This document shows, piece after piece, positions 699 to 39,312 of a DNA stretch of 39,312 bases. Origin of the DNA: Candidatus Gastranaerophilales bacterium (GTDB lineage: Bacteria; Cyanobacteriota; Vampirovibrionia; Gastranaerophilales; Gastranaerophilaceae); the NCBI GenBank assembly GCA_028693235.1, contig JAQUVW010000007.1, positions 1 through 39,312 on the forward strand, written 5' to 3'. The stretch's first letter is position 1, and every line of letters begins with the position of its first letter. The notes under the pieces were generated by a model. The model was not told the origin of the DNA. It saw only the letters and a list, made by a program, of their open reading frames with translations, and ran no database searches. The translations under genes and the position numbers were made by a program.

Positions 699-2741
699 AT
701 GAAGTCGCATTTATATAAATTATTATTTTCTATTTTTGTATTATTTTTGCTCATTTTGAGTTTTGTTTTCTCTAAGTTTTTTGCGGGGTTAGAAACTTTT
801 TCTCAAGACTGGAAGCAGACACTCGAGTTGAATTTTTCAAAACACAATGATTATAATAATGTTCGAGAGAAAATTGTAATTTTATCAATTGATGATTTAA
901 CCTCTTTTGATTTAAGCAATCATCCTGAGGTAAATATAAAACGTTGGCCTTTAGGGCGTGACATGTGGGGTGAAATAATTGATTTTTTAGAAAAGGGAAA
1001 GCCTGCAACAATAAGTATAGCGATACCTTTTCAAAATTATGAGGATATTACTCATTCAGCGAGTTCGTCGGATTTAAAGTTAGCAGATACTTTAGAAAAA
1101 TATGACAATGTTATTTTGGGGACTATCTTGAATACGCCACAGACTGTTACAAAGGATTCCCCAATGACAGTTTTGATGGACAAGATTGATAATTCTTATG
1201 TCCCGTTGAGAGAGTCTTTGAATGTTAATTTTGTATCTGATAGAGAATTTGGAGATGATGTAAATTATTTTTCTTATTTAGCAATACCTCCGATTTTTGT
1301 TGATAGCAGTTCTATTGGGTATATGAATTTGCAACGTGAGTATGATTCTGTAATTCGCTATTCGCAACCGATTTCACGTATTATTGATAAAAGTATTGTT
1401 TATTATATGCCGTCTTTTCCTTTTGCAACATTTTTAAAATATATAGGTTACGAAGGGCGTTTGAATATTGATAAAACTAAAATGAGCTTCAAGAATTATT
1501 CCATACCATTAAATAAAGGTGCAGACAATTATGTAAATTGGAACGGAATGTCACGATATTATAATTTTATTCCGTTAAGCAAGATTATTATAGGTATGAA
1601 AACCACCGGAAGGTCTTTTGAATACGAAAAAATCAAATATCCGGTTGAGTATTTCAAGGGTAAAATAGTTATAATAGCACCTACTCAAACAAACTCAAAT
1701 ACGCATGATACTGCTATTTATCAAGGTTTGACTGATGCTGAGGTGTATGCAAATATAATTCAAAATTACATTAATGATGCTCAGCTTGATAATCCTGTAA
1801 GGACAAAATTTTTGAGGGAAATGCCAGCGGCTATGACTATAGCGATTGTGCTTTTCTTTGTATTGTTGATTGTTTTAAATGCATTATATTCAAAAATTTC
1901 TTTGCTTACTTTTTTTAATTCTATTTTAATAATATTATTATATTTATTTTTGGATTTATTTTTGTTTTCGCACCCAAAAATCAGGTTAGATATGCCCTTG
2001 GTTCATCCCTTGTATTTACTTTCTATTACTTTGTTTTGCTCATATTTGTATGTTTTGATTGATGAAAATACAAAGAAAAAAGAGATTGTTGGTATTTTCG
2101 GCAAGTTTGTAGCTGACAATGTTTTAGATAGATTATTAAAAAATTCAAGAAACTTTGAGCTCAAAACTGCACATAAGAATGTTTCTGTTATGTTTTGTGA
2201 TGTTACTAATTTTACATCTATAAATGAAAAGTATTCAGTGGATTTAGTTGTTGAAAAGTTAAACGAAGTTTTTACAATTGCGACTGAGAAAATATTCAAA
2301 TATCAAGGAACTATTGATAAATTTATTGGTGACGCTGTAATGGCGTATTGGGGCGACCCTATTTCTGACCCGAAAGATGCCATGAATGCTGTAAAAGCTG
2401 CAGTTGAAATAATCGAGGCGATAGATGATTTCAACAAATCATTGCCCGAAAAAGAGTTGAAGCTCGATGTCAAAATAGCTATAAACACAGGTGAGGCACT
2501 TGTTGGATGTATAGGAACTGACAAAATCGTTGATTATACCGTTTTGGGTGACACTGTCAACATTGCGTCAAGAATGACAGAGATATGTTCTGAGTTTAAT
2601 AAAAAATTGCTTATTTCAGAAGCCACTTATGAGGCTGTTAAAAACATTATTCAGGCTGATTATACAGGTAATATTAAGCTGAAAGGCAAAGATATTCAGG
2701 TTGCTCTTTACGCTCCAAAAATGGGTGAAGATGATGATTAA
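699..2741 (+). CDS. CHASE2-domain class III adenylate cyclase
   Basis: Membrane-bound cyclase, probably making cAMP from ATP in response to an extracytoplasmic signal. Order of parts: an N-terminal membrane segment (residues about 5-30); an extracytoplasmic CHASE2 sensor (about 35-370); two or three membrane segments (about 380-460); a cytoplasmic class III cyclase domain (about 490-675). Metal-binding aspartates are Asp501 (FCDVTNFT) and Asp545 (KFIGDAVMAYWG). The Lys in KFIGD, the later DYTVLGD and the Asn/Arg in NIASRM fit adenylate rather than guanylate specificity. The start is uncertain: I chose ATG 699, but ATG 687 and a TTG at 663 are in frame and none has a clear ribosome site. The stop overlaps the next gene, suggesting co-transcription. 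No cAMP receptor protein gene is in the window. Confidence 0.9.
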   Translation: MKSHLYKLLFSIFVLFLLILSFVFSKFFAGLETFSQDWKQTLELNFSKHNDYNNVREKIVILSIDDLTSFDLSNHPEVNIKRWPLGRDMWGEIIDFLEKGKPATISIAIPFQNYEDITHSASSSDLKLADTLEKYDNVILGTILNTPQTVTKDSPMTVLMDKIDNSYVPLRESLNVNFVSDREFGDDVNYFSYLAIPPIFVDSSSIGYMNLQREYDSVIRYSQPISRIIDKSIVYYMPSFPFATFLKYIGYEGRLNIDKTKMSFKNYSIPLNKGADNYVNWNGMSRYYNFIPLSKIIIGMKTTGRSFEYEKIKYPVEYFKGKIVIIAPTQTNSNTHDTAIYQGLTDAEVYANIIQNYINDAQLDNPVRTKFLREMPAAMTIAIVLFFVLLIVLNALYSKISLLTFFNSILIILLYLFLDLFLFSHPKIRLDMPLVHPLYLLSITLFCSYLYVLIDENTKKKEIVGIFGKFVADNVLDRLLKNSRNFELKTAHKNVSVMFCDVTNFTSINEKYSVDLVVEKLNEVFTIATEKIFKYQGTIDKFIGDAVMAYWGDPISDPKDAMNAVKAAVEIIEAIDDFNKSLPEKELKLDVKIAINTGEALVGCIGTDKIVDYTVLGDTVNIASRMTEICSEFNKKLLISEATYEAVKNIIQADYTGNIKLKGKDIQVALYAPKMGEDDD

Positions 2742-4380
2742 TATTGACTCTTTGACTATGAAGGCATTCCTTGAGGAAAATTCAGGGTTTTTGATTGGAG
2801 CAAGGGTTCAAAAAATTCAGCAGCCAAACAGGCGAGAGCTGATTTTTCAGCTTAGGGGGCTCAAAGAAACCAGAAAATTTTATGTAAATATTAATCCTTC
2901 GTTTTATCATATTTGTTTTATGTCAAAGGGAAACGAGGCGGCAAGGGCGATTGAAATACCTAAGCAGGCAGCTATGTTTTGCATGCTGTTACGTAAATAT
3001 TTAGATGGTGCAAAAATTGTTGACGTGGTTCAGCCAAAGCATGAAAGAATTATTGAATTTTATTTTGATTATTATGATGTGTTGAACGAAAATTCTAAAC
3101 TATGTCTTGCGATAGAGCTTATGGGGAAGCATAGTAATGTCATTTTGTATAACGCTGATACAAATGTAATTATCGGTTGTGCTCATAATGTCGGGGCTGA
3201 AAAAAGCAAAGAGCGTGAGCTTGCAGGTCTTTTGCCTTACATTTATCCTCCTAAAAAACGCAAAAAGAGTATAAATAAAATTGATTTTGAAGTTTTTAAT
3301 TTGATTTTATCAGCTGCTGAAAACAAAATTGATGCCATAATAAATTCTTTTTATGACATAACAAAACCCATTATTGAGTCTGTTTTAAAAAATGGTTTTT
3401 CTTTTGAAAATCCACAAGAGTTGTTTATTGAACTTCAAAAAACGGTTGAATTGTATTATGTAGAGCCGAGTATTTCAGAGGATTTTTCTTGTTTTTCAAT
3501 ATATCCTGTTGCCGGAGTTAATTCAGTTGGTACTGTGAATAATATGCTTGATGATTATTTTTCCTTTTATCAAGCTCAGACTATTATTAGAAATTTAAAA
3601 CAACGATTGCTTACTATATTAAATAATAATTTGAAAAAATTAAATAGGCTGAAATCAAAGCAACAATATCAGCTTGACCAAATTGATAAAGCAAATTATT
3701 ATAAAAAAATTGCAGATATTATAATGGCGAATTTGTACCGGATAAAATCATTTGAAAAATCAGTTACACTGCTTGATTATGAAATAGGTGAAAATGTCGA
3801 AATTGACCTTGATACAACGCTTTCTGCTTCGGATAACGCAAACCGCTATTATAAGCTTTACAAAAAGATGAAATCAGCGTACGAGCATTCTGTCGAAATG
3901 ATAAAAGAAACTCAAACGCAAATAGATTATTACTCAGAGCAAAAGTTTTATGTCGAACTGGCGTCGTCGATTAATGAGTTAAACGATATTGCTCAAGAAA
4001 TTTTGCCTGCTGAAAATAAAAAATCTAAGGAAAGCGAAATCAAGGTAGAAAGTAGAGAGTTTGCCGGGTTTAAGGTGTACGTCGGTAAAAACAGCAAGCA
4101 AAATGACTATATATTATCAAAGCTTTCATCGCCTGAAGATTTGTGGTTCCACTCATTAAACATGGCAGGAGCACACGTCGTTATTAAGAAGAATGCTCCA
4201 AAAGAGTCGGTTCCAAACGATGTTTTATTGGTGGCAGCTCAACTGGCAAAAAAATATTCAGTCCAAAAATCAGGTGCAAAAATACCAGTTATTTATACTA
4301 AACGCAAATACGTGAAAAAATCTAATTCAAAGGGCTTGGCGTTTGTTACATACAAAAACGAATCAGAGATTTATTGTTAA
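2734..4380 (+). CDS. rqcH: RqcH/NFACT family ribosome-associated quality control protein
   Basis: About 548 residues, the usual family length. RqcH (bacterial Rqc2, older name fibronectin-binding protein A) binds stalled 50S subunits with peptidyl-tRNA and recruits tRNA-Ala to add C-terminal alanine tails. Visible parts: NFACT-N domain (about 1-200), helix-rich coiled-coil middle (about 270-420) and the C-terminal NFACT-R domain with VYVGKNSKQNDYILSKLSS and DLWFHSLNMAGAHVVIK. The catalytic Asp-Arg pair of RqcH seems to be Glu-Arg here (KHERIIEF, residues about 99-106), so elongation activity should not be assumed. ATG at 2731 or 2734; 2734 is chosen, with GGGTGAAG upstream. It overlaps the cyclase stop by eight bases. 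Confidence 0.88.
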   Translation: MINIDSLTMKAFLEENSGFLIGARVQKIQQPNRRELIFQLRGLKETRKFYVNINPSFYHICFMSKGNEAARAIEIPKQAAMFCMLLRKYLDGAKIVDVVQPKHERIIEFYFDYYDVLNENSKLCLAIELMGKHSNVILYNADTNVIIGCAHNVGAEKSKERELAGLLPYIYPPKKRKKSINKIDFEVFNLILSAAENKIDAIINSFYDITKPIIESVLKNGFSFENPQELFIELQKTVELYYVEPSISEDFSCFSIYPVAGVNSVGTVNNMLDDYFSFYQAQTIIRNLKQRLLTILNNNLKKLNRLKSKQQYQLDQIDKANYYKKIADIIMANLYRIKSFEKSVTLLDYEIGENVEIDLDTTLSASDNANRYYKLYKKMKSAYEHSVEMIKETQTQIDYYSEQKFYVELASSINELNDIAQEILPAENKKSKESEIKVESREFAGFKVYVGKNSKQNDYILSKLSSPEDLWFHSLNMAGAHVVIKKNAPKESVPNDVLLVAAQLAKKYSVQKSGAKIPVIYTKRKYVKKSNSKGLAFVTYKNESEIYC

Positions 4381-36304: not shown

Positions 36305-36411
36305 AATATAGTATTTTTTGATGCTACTTTTATATTAACCAAGTGGCTATAGTTTTATTTTATTATAAGTATTCAAATATTTACTGCAATGTTTAATTTA
36401 ATAAAAAGACA

Positions 36412-36438
36412 AAAACGGAGACAATTTGTCTCCGTTTT
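36412..36438 (-). terminator. terminator after the lysozyme-like modular gene
   Basis: Arms AAAACGGAGACA (36412-36423) and TGTCTCCGTTTT (36427-36438) with a three-base loop. On the minus strand the stem runs into TTTTTGTCTTTTT. It lies 20 bases past the stop at 36458. The symmetry may also allow plus-strand action. Confidence 0.88.
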
Positions 36439-36457
36439 CAATTTAATATAGTTGATG

Positions 36458-38443
36458 CTATTCCATAATTGATTTAAGCATAACCATAACACCGAGTTGT
36501 TGATCATAGGCACTTGAGTCATAAACGCCGTCTGCGACATATTTACCACCGGAATAATTTGTGGTTCCTGCCCATACGTAAGGTGATGCTACACCTTTGT
36601 TTCTATATCCAAGACCGTTATATCTTTCTGCGTAATCGGCAATTGCATCTAGGTCATCAGAATTGTTTGCCAAACTTCCTTTATCTTGGCTGTTTATAGC
36701 GTCGATAGCAGCTTCTGTCCAATCGTTGAAGTTTTTGCCGGCGGGTACGTGCGTTGTCGGTTTTCCGAGTGGGTCGCCATTGTGAAGGTAAGTGTTGAAG
36801 TTACCTGAAGATTCTCTCCAGTGTATTGCCGCAACAAGTTCAGCAGGTACGCCGGTTGCTTCTGCAACTTTTTCATATTTGTCTTTATTGTCAGTGTATA
36901 ATTTTTTGAATTTTTCAAGGTCGGCTTTTTGAGAATCTGATAAGTTTTCTTCAAAATCAAATACAGGTCCGGTTCTGTTTTCTGCAATGACTTTGTCAGT
37001 TTTTTCCTTTTGTTCTGCTTGAGCAAGTTCTGTTTTAAGGGTTTGGATTTCCTTGTCTAAACCATCAACTTTAGTTTTCTTTTCACTTTCTAGGGATTTG
37101 ATTTTTTCATCAGTTTCTGCCTTTAATTCTTTAGTTTTTTCGGCAACTTTGTCTAATTTGTCTTTCATTTCAGGGTGGTCTTTAGCTAAAGTTTCAAGCA
37201 ATTTGTCTTTTTCTTCTTGAGCTTTAGTTTTAGCTTCTTGAGCTTTAGTTTTAGCTTCTTCAGCTTTGGTTTTATCTTCTTCTGCCTTTTTCTTGTCAGC
37301 TTCCAAAGTTTCTTTTTCTTTTGTTAAGTTGTCAATTTTTCCTTGTATATCAGCTTTTTTAGAGGCTGCGTCTTCAGCTTTTTCATCGACAGATGACATG
37401 CTACTTTGAAGATTGCCGATTTGTCCTTCTACGTCACTGATAGCTGTAGTTTTTGCTTCTATTGTGGCTGTAGCGTCTTGGATTTTTCCTTCAGCGTCTT
37501 GGATATTTTTGTCTTGAGTTGAGATTTCTTTTGCAAGTTCTTCACTCTTTTTGTCGTATTCTTGCTGAACTTTTTCATCGACTTTTTCTTCTTCCATAGC
37601 TTTTTGGACAGCTTCGTCGTATTTTTCTTGTTCAGCTTGAATTTTTTCTTCTGTATCTGTATTTACAGTTTCTTTTTCGGTTTCTTTTGTTTCTATTTCC
37701 TTTTTAATTTCATCAGGAGTTCTTGCATCCGCTGTTTCAGAGCTTGGATTTGTTGCAGAAGTATTTCCTGCTCCGTTGCTGCCTGAACTTGAGCCTGTGC
37801 CTCCTGTTCCTCCCACACCGCCTGATGGAGCACATTGGTAACTGCTTGATGGTGTGCTTGCGTTACTCGTTTTTGGAGAGTAAGTTTCTCCACGTTCTTG
37901 TTCTGCAGGGTCTTCGATATCTTCAAGTTTGCCTTCAGTTTCTGTTTCTGTTTCTGGGTCTAATGATTTTGCCACATTGCTGATAAGGTCAGAAAGATTA
38001 ACGTCTAAATCTTGAAATAATTTTTCGACATCATCAGATGAAATATTTCCGGAATCTGTGTCAAAAGCACTGATGTTTTTTAACATAGTTTGTATTTCGT
38101 CGTTGTCGATTTTTCCATCGTTATTTGCATCTGCTGCTTTTTGAACCTCTTTTACGTTAAGAAGCTCTTGTACCAGTTGAACGACACTCTTTTGTTCATC
38201 TGTCATATCGGCATCTTTGACATCTGTCGTGATTTCTTTCATTCCGTCTTCATCTTCTTCAACGAAATATTTCATTGAATTTGCGATGTCAAAAGATACA
38301 CCTTGTGCAAATATAGACTCACCTGCTATTCCTTCTTGCTCTTTCGTTTGGGAGTCTTGAAGTTTTTTCAGGTCATCTTCATTTACTTTGCTTGTATCAA
38401 GCTTTCCGTTTTGTACCAGTTTTAATAATAAATCACGCCACAT
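36458..38443 (-). CDS. EF-hand / coiled-coil protein with C-terminal lysozyme-like domain
   Basis: 661 residues, strongly acidic and modular. Residues 1-160 include a canonical EF-hand loop DANNDGKIDNDE (105-116) and a degenerate second one (128-139), so calcium binding is likely. Residues 160-240 are a low-complexity linker (SSSYQCAPSGGVGGTGGTGS). Residues about 243-490 are an uninterrupted charged coiled coil with a repeated KTKAEEA/KTKAQEA unit. Residues about 505-661 resemble phage-type muramidase domains: ATGVPAELVAAIHWRESSGN (likely catalytic Glu544), YLHNGDPLGKPTTHVPAGK, YAERYNGLGYR and SPYVWAGTTNYSGGKYVADG. No signal peptide is visible, so export, if any, uses another route. The coiled coil is shared with the next gene upstream. 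ATG 38443, weak ribosome site. Confidence 0.85.
   Translation of the reverse strand: MWRDLLLKLVQNGKLDTSKVNEDDLKKLQDSQTKEQEGIAGESIFAQGVSFDIANSMKYFVEEDEDGMKEITTDVKDADMTDEQKSVVQLVQELLNVKEVQKAADANNDGKIDNDEIQTMLKNISAFDTDSGNISSDDVEKLFQDLDVNLSDLISNVAKSLDPETETETEGKLEDIEDPAEQERGETYSPKTSNASTPSSSYQCAPSGGVGGTGGTGSSSGSNGAGNTSATNPSSETADARTPDEIKKEIETKETEKETVNTDTEEKIQAEQEKYDEAVQKAMEEEKVDEKVQQEYDKKSEELAKEISTQDKNIQDAEGKIQDATATIEAKTTAISDVEGQIGNLQSSMSSVDEKAEDAASKKADIQGKIDNLTKEKETLEADKKKAEEDKTKAEEAKTKAQEAKTKAQEEKDKLLETLAKDHPEMKDKLDKVAEKTKELKAETDEKIKSLESEKKTKVDGLDKEIQTLKTELAQAEQKEKTDKVIAENRTGPVFDFEENLSDSQKADLEKFKKLYTDNKDKYEKVAEATGVPAELVAAIHWRESSGNFNTYLHNGDPLGKPTTHVPAGKNFNDWTEAAIDAINSQDKGSLANNSDDLDAIADYAERYNGLGYRNKGVASPYVWAGTTNYSGGKYVADGVYDSSAYDQQLGVMVMLKSIME
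37215..37277 (-). repeat. three 21-base tandem repeats in the coiled-coil coding part
   Basis: Units at 37215-37235, 37236-37256 (identical) and 37257-37277 (a few changes). On the minus strand each codes seven residues of the KTKAQEA type, one heptad of the coiled coil. Slippage here would change coil length in whole heptads without breaking the frame. Confidence 0.85.
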
Positions 38444-38481
38444 ATTGGTTTTTCCCTTTTTATTTTATCCCTATCCATGAC

Positions 38482-38502
38482 GGTATAGACTACCGCTATA
38501 CC
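38482..38502 (-). promoter_or_regulatory. inverted repeat upstream of the lysozyme-like modular gene
   Basis: GGTATAG-ACTACCG-CTATACC, seven-base perfect arms and a seven-base loop, 39 bases before the start codon on the minus strand. It may be a regulator site or an mRNA leader hairpin. There is no T-run, so it is not a terminator. Confidence 0.5.
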
Positions 38503-38615
38503 ATGATTATCGGCATTTTAAGATGTTTACTTTAAGACATGGAGAAAGAGATTTAGAATGTGTTAATAATTTGTAACAAAAAAGATTTTTTAATAAAGTC
38601 ATTTTTGTTGTGGGT

Positions 38616-39312
38616 TTAGCCCATTGAAACAATTGCTCTTATTGTGCTCATATCGCGGTCTTTATATGCTACACAACTGCTTGAACTTCCGGAAGTGTTA
38701 CCTTCGATTGTTTTAATGTTGTAACCGTCACCTGAGTCGACTAATATTCCGACGTGGTCAGAGTTGTTGTCGCCATCCCAGTCAAATAAAACCATATCAC
38801 CCGGTTTTGCTTGACTTATGTCAATTACGGCACCTGCTGCTGATGCTTCGCTGTATAAGGTCGGACAATATGCAGGGTTTGAGGAGTTTTTGTACCAATC
38901 AGGGAGATTGTCTAATCCTACGCCTTCGCCAAGTGCCATTCTTACGAAGTCTGCACACCATGCTCCTGAGTCAAATTGGTAACCTTTTTCTTTAAAGACT
39001 TTTCGCATTTCGTCTTCGCTCATTCCTTCAAATTGTTTTGCGAATTCAATGGCTGCAGCTTGGTCACCTGTCATATTTTCTTTAAGGACTTTATCCGTCT
39101 TTTCTTTTTGTTCAGCTTGAGCAAGCTCTGTTTTAAGAGTTTGGATTTCACCGTTCAGTCCATCGGTTTTTGTATCTCTTGTTGATTCAAGTTCTTTGAT
39201 ATTCTTGTCGGTTTCTTCTTTTATTTCTTTTGTTTTTTCTTCTACTTTGTTTAATTTATCCTTTATTTCAGGGTGCTCTTTTGCCATTGTATCAAGCAAT
39301 TTGTCTTTTTCA
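38616..39312 (-). CDS. coiled-coil protein with C-terminal CHAP hydrolase domain (5' part outside window)
   Basis: The last 232 residues are visible; the frame is open to the window edge. The first 80 or so (EKDKLLDTMAKEHPEIKDKL to IQTLKTELAQAEQKEKTDKV) are nearly the same as residues 412-485 of the neighbouring protein. After ENMTG the sequences diverge. The rest is a CHAP (NlpC/P60-like) amidase/endopeptidase domain: catalytic Cys in SGAWCADFVRMAL, His in DHVGILV and a polar residue in TIEGNTSG. Such domains cut peptide cross-links of peptidoglycan. The upstream domains are unknown but may repeat the EF-hand and linker. It has the same orientation as the lysozyme-like gene, 172 bases apart. 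Confidence 0.85.
   Translation of the reverse strand, partial: EKDKLLDTMAKEHPEIKDKLNKVEEKTKEIKEETDKNIKELESTRDTKTDGLNGEIQTLKTELAQAEQKEKTDKVLKENMTGDQAAAIEFAKQFEGMSEDEMRKVFKEKGYQFDSGAWCADFVRMALGEGVGLDNLPDWYKNSSNPAYCPTLYSEASAAGAVIDISQAKPGDMVLFDWDGDNNSDHVGILVDSGDGYNIKTIEGNTSGSSSSCVAYKDRDMSTIRAIVSMG

Follow-up and report, generated by a model that had tools for sequence, protein, structure and literature searches.

Two neighbouring genes at the end of the window, here called A and B, encode almost the same coiled coil joined to two different wall-cutting tails. Our reading, to which we give a rough probability of 55%, is that both are polymorphic peptidoglycan hydrolases special to the Gastranaerophilales, exported without Sec and acting on other bacteria. 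The members of their family are probably secreted weapons or digestive tools. They would make up an order-wide and apparently undescribed set of weapons, modular proteins that cut cell walls, in gut cyanobacteria that are uncultured and of poorly known ecology, which suggests that this non-photosynthetic order attacks or digests other bacteria. Both the tails and the scaffold are open to direct expression tests.

The gene pair and its relatives in the same genome

The window, that is, the whole stretch of DNA analysed (39,312 nucleotides), spans contig C7 of genome G000 from end to end; the assembly comprises 2.1 Mb in seven contigs. All of the window features described in this section lie on the minus strand. 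Gene A (36458 to 38443) is a complete open reading frame of 661 amino acids that matches the family profile at E 1.2e-110. Gene B (38616 to 39311) is an open-ended frame of 231 amino acids, truncated at its 5' end by the end of the contig, and consists of scaffold coil followed by a CHAP tail. The last 75 coiled-coil residues of B (39087 to 39311) are identical to A, from residue 411 of the latter, at 58 of 75 positions (77%). When the DNA is compared in blocks of 30 bases, 16 to 27 bases match within the coil and about 6 to 14 after the motif ENRTG/ENMTG, so that similarity is at chance level directly past the coil. The original prediction of a near-identical coil that ends at this motif is thus borne out.

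The scaffold of A can be read from its N-terminus as follows. Residues 1-55 (38279 to 38443) hold an N-terminal helix with a SIF motif (ESIFAQG), and model confidence is low before residue 50; as had been noted from the sequence, there is no signal peptide, the N-terminus lacking a Sec-like hydrophobic stretch. Residues 82-160 (37964 to 38200) form a calcium-binding EF-hand domain, helical in the model, which matches Pfam EF-hand_7 at E 1.2e-5 and is conserved family-wide; at 26.0 bits it falls below the whole-protein Pfam cut-off of 30, and we nevertheless regard the predicted domain as real. Only ordinary EF-hand models were matched by the calcium-binding part of A (Pfam, E up to 1), and no dockerin. 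The Gly/Ser-rich linker at residues 161-240 (37724 to 37963), also foreseen, is predicted to be disordered (pLDDT below 50 over residues 156-239), with Gly and Ser making up 38% of residues 181-245.

Residues 243-488 (36980 to 37717) are modelled as a long antiparallel coiled-coil hairpin with helices at 243-351 and 359-488, of about 110 and 130 residues. Its Foldseek matches include the coiled coils of SMC, RipA, PcsB, and colicin E9; those to SMC and SH3BP5 were set aside as generic hairpins. The full-length model of A has a mean pLDDT of 77.3 and a pTM of 0.37, so the relative placement of the domains is not predicted.

The tail of A (residues 490-661; 36461 to 36976) carries an HWRE motif with Glu544 and, modelled alone, reaches a pLDDT of 93.5. 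Although it has no Pfam match above cut-off, the model aligns with the lysozyme superfamily and related wall enzymes: MltF is best (VIA Z 8.6), followed by g-type lysozyme at Z 8.1, with MltE, FlgJ, and similar wall enzymes also aligned. Such enzymes account for almost all of the structural matches listed (Foldseek E above 0.3). The His and Glu of HWRE are invariant across 27 sequences. On this model the tail likely adopts a lysozyme fold, the structural scores being middling, and the lysozyme-like assignment made from the letters is likely right. The CHAP domain assigned to B lies at 38697 to 38972 (WCADF...DHVG...EGNTS) and matches PF05257 at E 1e-8, with 36.0 bits against a Pfam cut-off of 26. 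Matches to HAM1_N and other eukaryotic coiled-coil Pfam families were dropped as coil noise.

A search for further copies, as the original prediction had proposed, found a third tail in the same genome. Contig C6 starts within the same coil and runs on into a GH73 glucosaminidase; 209 of the first 210 bases of B are equal to this copy (C6:1-225), and the two tails diverge at the same coil boundary. The N-terminus of B lies outside the window, and the only candidates found for it are on contigs C2 and C5, which end inside N-termini beginning MWIDLLLKLAGSGKA. These two are nearly identical to each other over about 140 bases and 49% identical to A over 50 amino acids, so the N-terminus of the CHAP gene, if it is one of them, does not differ fully from that of A. 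Two N-terminal and two C-terminal fragments point to a pair of almost identical scaffolds, each with its own tail, that were collapsed by the assembler, and the assembly is broken at the ends of C2, C5, C6, and C7 because of this near-identical repeat. Contig C1 holds two more family genes in tandem, both CHAP-tailed, one of them without the coiled coil. In more than one genome a scaffold gene is where a contig stops (at the C2, C5, C6, and C7 ends in G000, and at L098, L111, and L113), and family copy numbers taken from short-read assemblies are therefore probably underestimates.

An order-wide family with exchanged tails

A scaffold profile built from 15 members without any tail (A1) finds members in 85 of 286 Gastranaerophilales genomes, which belong to 17 of 50 genera; about 70% of the genomes of the order lack the family, and positive genomes hold 1 to 11 members. 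The named relatives are Candidatus Gastranaerophilales MAGs; a single-protein scan of the genome contigs returned none of them, and it was an alignment-seeded scan that found them. Judged by this kinship, the host of A and B is probably a member of the same order. The sample of the phylum outside the order yielded no convincing member, only two short cyanobacterial matches near 1e-9 that cover the coiled coil alone and were judged to be chance. No published description was found in the open-access literature, most subscription journals being outside this coverage, and the family is apparently undescribed so far.

The N-terminus carries the signature MNFxxLKxGFxxYL...SIFxYxxEFKDYL...SIFSxSxxDIL, which is best conserved in one set of genera. 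A SIF motif lies among the 110 N-terminal residues in 108 of 150 scaffold frames, as against 28 of 645 other frames.

For the C-termini, sequence clustering took in the tails of 112 members, and a tail type was assigned for 128. Tails are borne by 122 of the latter and fall into 13 groups: CHAP (39), lysozyme-like (27), NlpC-like (18, a label that rests on motif reading), GH73 (9), two SLT types (7 and 4), GH108 (6), M15/VanY (4), YkuD_2 (3), alpha/beta hydrolase (2), and single others (3). The remaining six are tailless, some being truncated where their contig stops. Most groups are wall-active, and Pfam backs the CHAP, GH73, GH108, SLT, M15, and YkuD_2 tails; C39 and esterase matches fell below its cut-off. 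Loss of catalytic residues would have spoken against the idea of exchangeable enzymes; the catalytic motifs are conserved, many CHAP tails reading WCAAF or similar, outside a strict CHAP pattern. The YkuD_2 tail is a transpeptidase fold, not a plain hydrolase, and this and the two alpha/beta hydrolases count against our main reading.

The distribution of these tails does not follow that of the scaffolds. A FastTree phylogeny of 114 scaffolds, scored for the 13 tail states, calls for no fewer than 40 changes of tail, where the minimum would be 12 if tails tracked the tree; the deep branches of this tree are weak, and several swaps fall within starred clades. Differently tailed scaffolds are up to 57% identical in the compared set, and near-completely so at the coil end in G000. 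Tandem pairs of members are common, frequently with unlike tails. Judged from these sequence comparisons, tails have been exchanged by recombination at the boundary between coil and tail. The view that A and B are copies of a single scaffold whose catalytic ends can be exchanged is thus supported far beyond one pair of genes, and the coil does turn up across the order with other C-termini.

Several loci depart from the common plan. In an SLT-tailed member at L143:3003-5897 the coil is preceded by a region resembling a calpain protease (PF00648, slightly under its cut-off), and at L126:3271-6192, L080:1442-3667, and L127:2241-3467 the tail is, respectively, a 496-residue sequence of unknown type, EF-hand-like, and missing. 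At L022 (G039, 909-3000), neighbouring lysozyme-like and CHAP genes have in common an unrelated repeat-type N-terminus, and it seems that another scaffold uses the same tails. A lysozyme-like gene that is short, stands alone, and lacks a signal peptide directly follows a scaffold gene of the same tail type at L129:7287-7985 and at L029 (G041).

Possible routes out of the cell and gene neighbours

In none of the 128 members does the N-terminus reach a hydropathy of 2.0, and adjacent secreted proteins, used as a positive control, reach 2.4 to 2.9. Export of the family would accordingly have to take a non-Sec route. Four export markers were scanned in the same 50 genomes, half of them family-positive and half family-negative. 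FlhA and FliP are present in all 50 and flagellin in 15, so that, among the exporters tested, only a flagellar (type III) one lacking the filament is universal. Type IV secretion was rejected as a general route (VirB4 in 1 of 50 genomes), as was contractile injection (sheath matches in 8 of 50).

We therefore see the filament-less flagellar type III apparatus as the most plausible exporter found and as a candidate route for the family. It is equally present in family-negative genomes and so is not a specific correlate, which leaves it a possible rather than an established route; the family genes also sit outside the type III gene cluster. A type III substrate would carry an N-terminal export signal, and the conserved N-terminal motif of the family is at most a candidate for one. 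According to Soo et al. in 2014, most of the Gastranaerophilales known by then had an incomplete flagellar gene set, considered non-functional (PMC4040986), and export would offer a possible function for this remnant. A bolder proposal holds that the incomplete flagellum of all Gastranaerophilales is a dedicated secretion machine, with the swap-tailed hydrolases as its main accessory cargo, breaking open other gut bacteria; we consider it unlikely.

Some features of the type III genes may be recorded here. On contig C3 of G000 (L174:11538-19001 and L175:460-2704), a second FlhA stands beside FliF, FliH, FliI, FliE, and rod proteins, and this second FlhA and FliP are kept in every one of the 50 genomes. 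The same contig encodes a 485-residue protein (L173:10758-12212, minus strand) with the cytoplasmic part of FlhA only (FHIPEP 321-653) and a weakly RraB-like N-terminus; similar proteins of about 490 residues are found across the tested genomes. In G018, a 122-residue protein with two SIF motifs (STSIFSQ and SSIFNQ), similar to those of the scaffold N-termini, is encoded a few kilobases from type III genes (L177:6125-6490, minus strand).

Around A and B the neighbours are ordinary. Just after A lies an intrinsic-terminator-like hairpin (36410 to 36440, minus strand; 14 pairs and a T run, a consensus match only), and the next gene past it is a response regulator. By eye, the flanks in the window encode response regulator, histidine kinase, Fur-like, and rubrerythrin-like proteins, and the recurrent neighbours across family loci are host metabolic genes. 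Neither A nor B is flanked by an immunity gene, and among the loci compared there is no small gene that recurs. Secretion genes and a small immunity gene had been suggested as things to seek nearby: the search brought out a candidate exporter, present elsewhere in every genome tested, and no general small immunity gene.

A secreted CarbopepD_reg_2 protein adjoins 13 members (L179:10847-11620 and 12 further loci), all of them with lysozyme-like or SLT tails and none with tails of other types; these neighbours occupy mostly one syntenic slot and so represent few independent events. We see in it a candidate partner or immunity protein restricted to the tails that cut glycan. As a general immunity factor it was dropped, since it stands beside these tails alone and mostly in that one slot.

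Proposed function and comparison with known systems

In the reading that we prefer, a constant body (N-terminal helix with SIF motif, EF-hand domain, disordered Gly/Ser linker, and coiled-coil hairpin) presents one exchangeable tail. The proteins would exit the cell without Sec, perhaps through the filament-less flagellar type III apparatus found in every genome tested; the EF-hand would then fold on contact with extracellular calcium, the hairpin would act as a spacer or adhesin toward the target surface, and the tail would cut wall bonds of other bacteria in competition, predation, or muropeptide scavenging. With 1 to 11 copies where present, and missing from some 70% of genomes, the family suits a role as accessory weapon or feeding tool better than one in core wall growth. 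We favour action on other bacteria: the lack of immunity genes, the accessory distribution, and the polymorphism all point that way without proving it. It is important to remember that the absence of a general immunity gene would be odd if the proteins kill kin, and this counts against our preferred reading.

This reading has two main rivals, colicin-like release and self-remodelling of the RipA/PcsB kind. The former would make these proteins diffusible bacteriocins that lysis sets free, that attach to a receptor by the hairpin tip, and that are armed with a swapped C-terminal killing domain. The layout of colicin E9 (PMC8561637) serves as the reference: like the E-group colicins, the family combines the lack of a signal peptide with a disordered Gly-rich stretch, a long hairpin, and a C-terminal enzyme in that order, and the colicin E9 translocation complex is among the Foldseek matches (E 0.58), a weak and generic hairpin match. 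Unlike ColE9, the family places an EF-hand domain ahead of the disordered linker, is present in several copies per genome, and carries wall enzymes instead of a nuclease; moreover, neither an immunity nor a lysis gene adjoins A or B, nor is there a general one in the compared loci. We consider this reading unlikely.

Self-remodelling, which we think less probable still, would cast the proteins as autolysins that the producer regulates, a coiled-coil hairpin restraining the wall hydrolase during division. RipA, PcsB, CwlO, and EnvC likewise join a helical hairpin to wall-cutting enzymes, the coil being paired with domains of the same kind (CHAP, NlpC, or glycosidase), and the fold matches include PcsB and the N-domain of RipA. 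However, these four are Sec-secreted, whereas none of the 128 sampled members of our family has a Sec-like N-terminus, and the family differs further in its accessory distribution and varying copy number, its additional glycosidase and carboxypeptidase tails, and its frequent swaps. Phage-derived or domesticated endolysins for programmed lysis of the producer are very improbable: two tails do match phage lysis or tail-lysozyme families, and an alignment-seeded viral scan with the lysozyme-type tail found one viral contig, but that contig has the catalytic domain without the scaffold, no phage genes recur around the family loci compared, and the body of coil and EF-hand is unlike that of endolysins.

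On the side of export, the nearest parallels to our preferred reading are filament-less flagellar type III systems. Retention of the flagellar export apparatus in the absence of motility has been reported in Buchnera, as basal bodies (PMC8109811), and in the non-flagellated Lysobacter enzymogenes (PMC9927559). Like these, the order keeps FliF, FliH, FliI, FliE, FlhA, FliP, and rod genes even where flagellin is missing; unlike them, its apparatus is only a candidate exporter for the proteins of the scaffold family. On the side of architecture, the comparison is with polymorphic toxin systems. Here the tails are almost all peptidoglycan enzymes, there is no general immunity gene, and the scaffold of EF-hand and hairpin matches no known trafficking domain; we call the family polymorphic-toxin-like in its working, and do not file it as a member because a downstream cognate immunity gene is missing. 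What it has in common with such systems is a constant body, many unrelated C-termini, repeated exchange, several paralogues per genome, and adjacent pairs.
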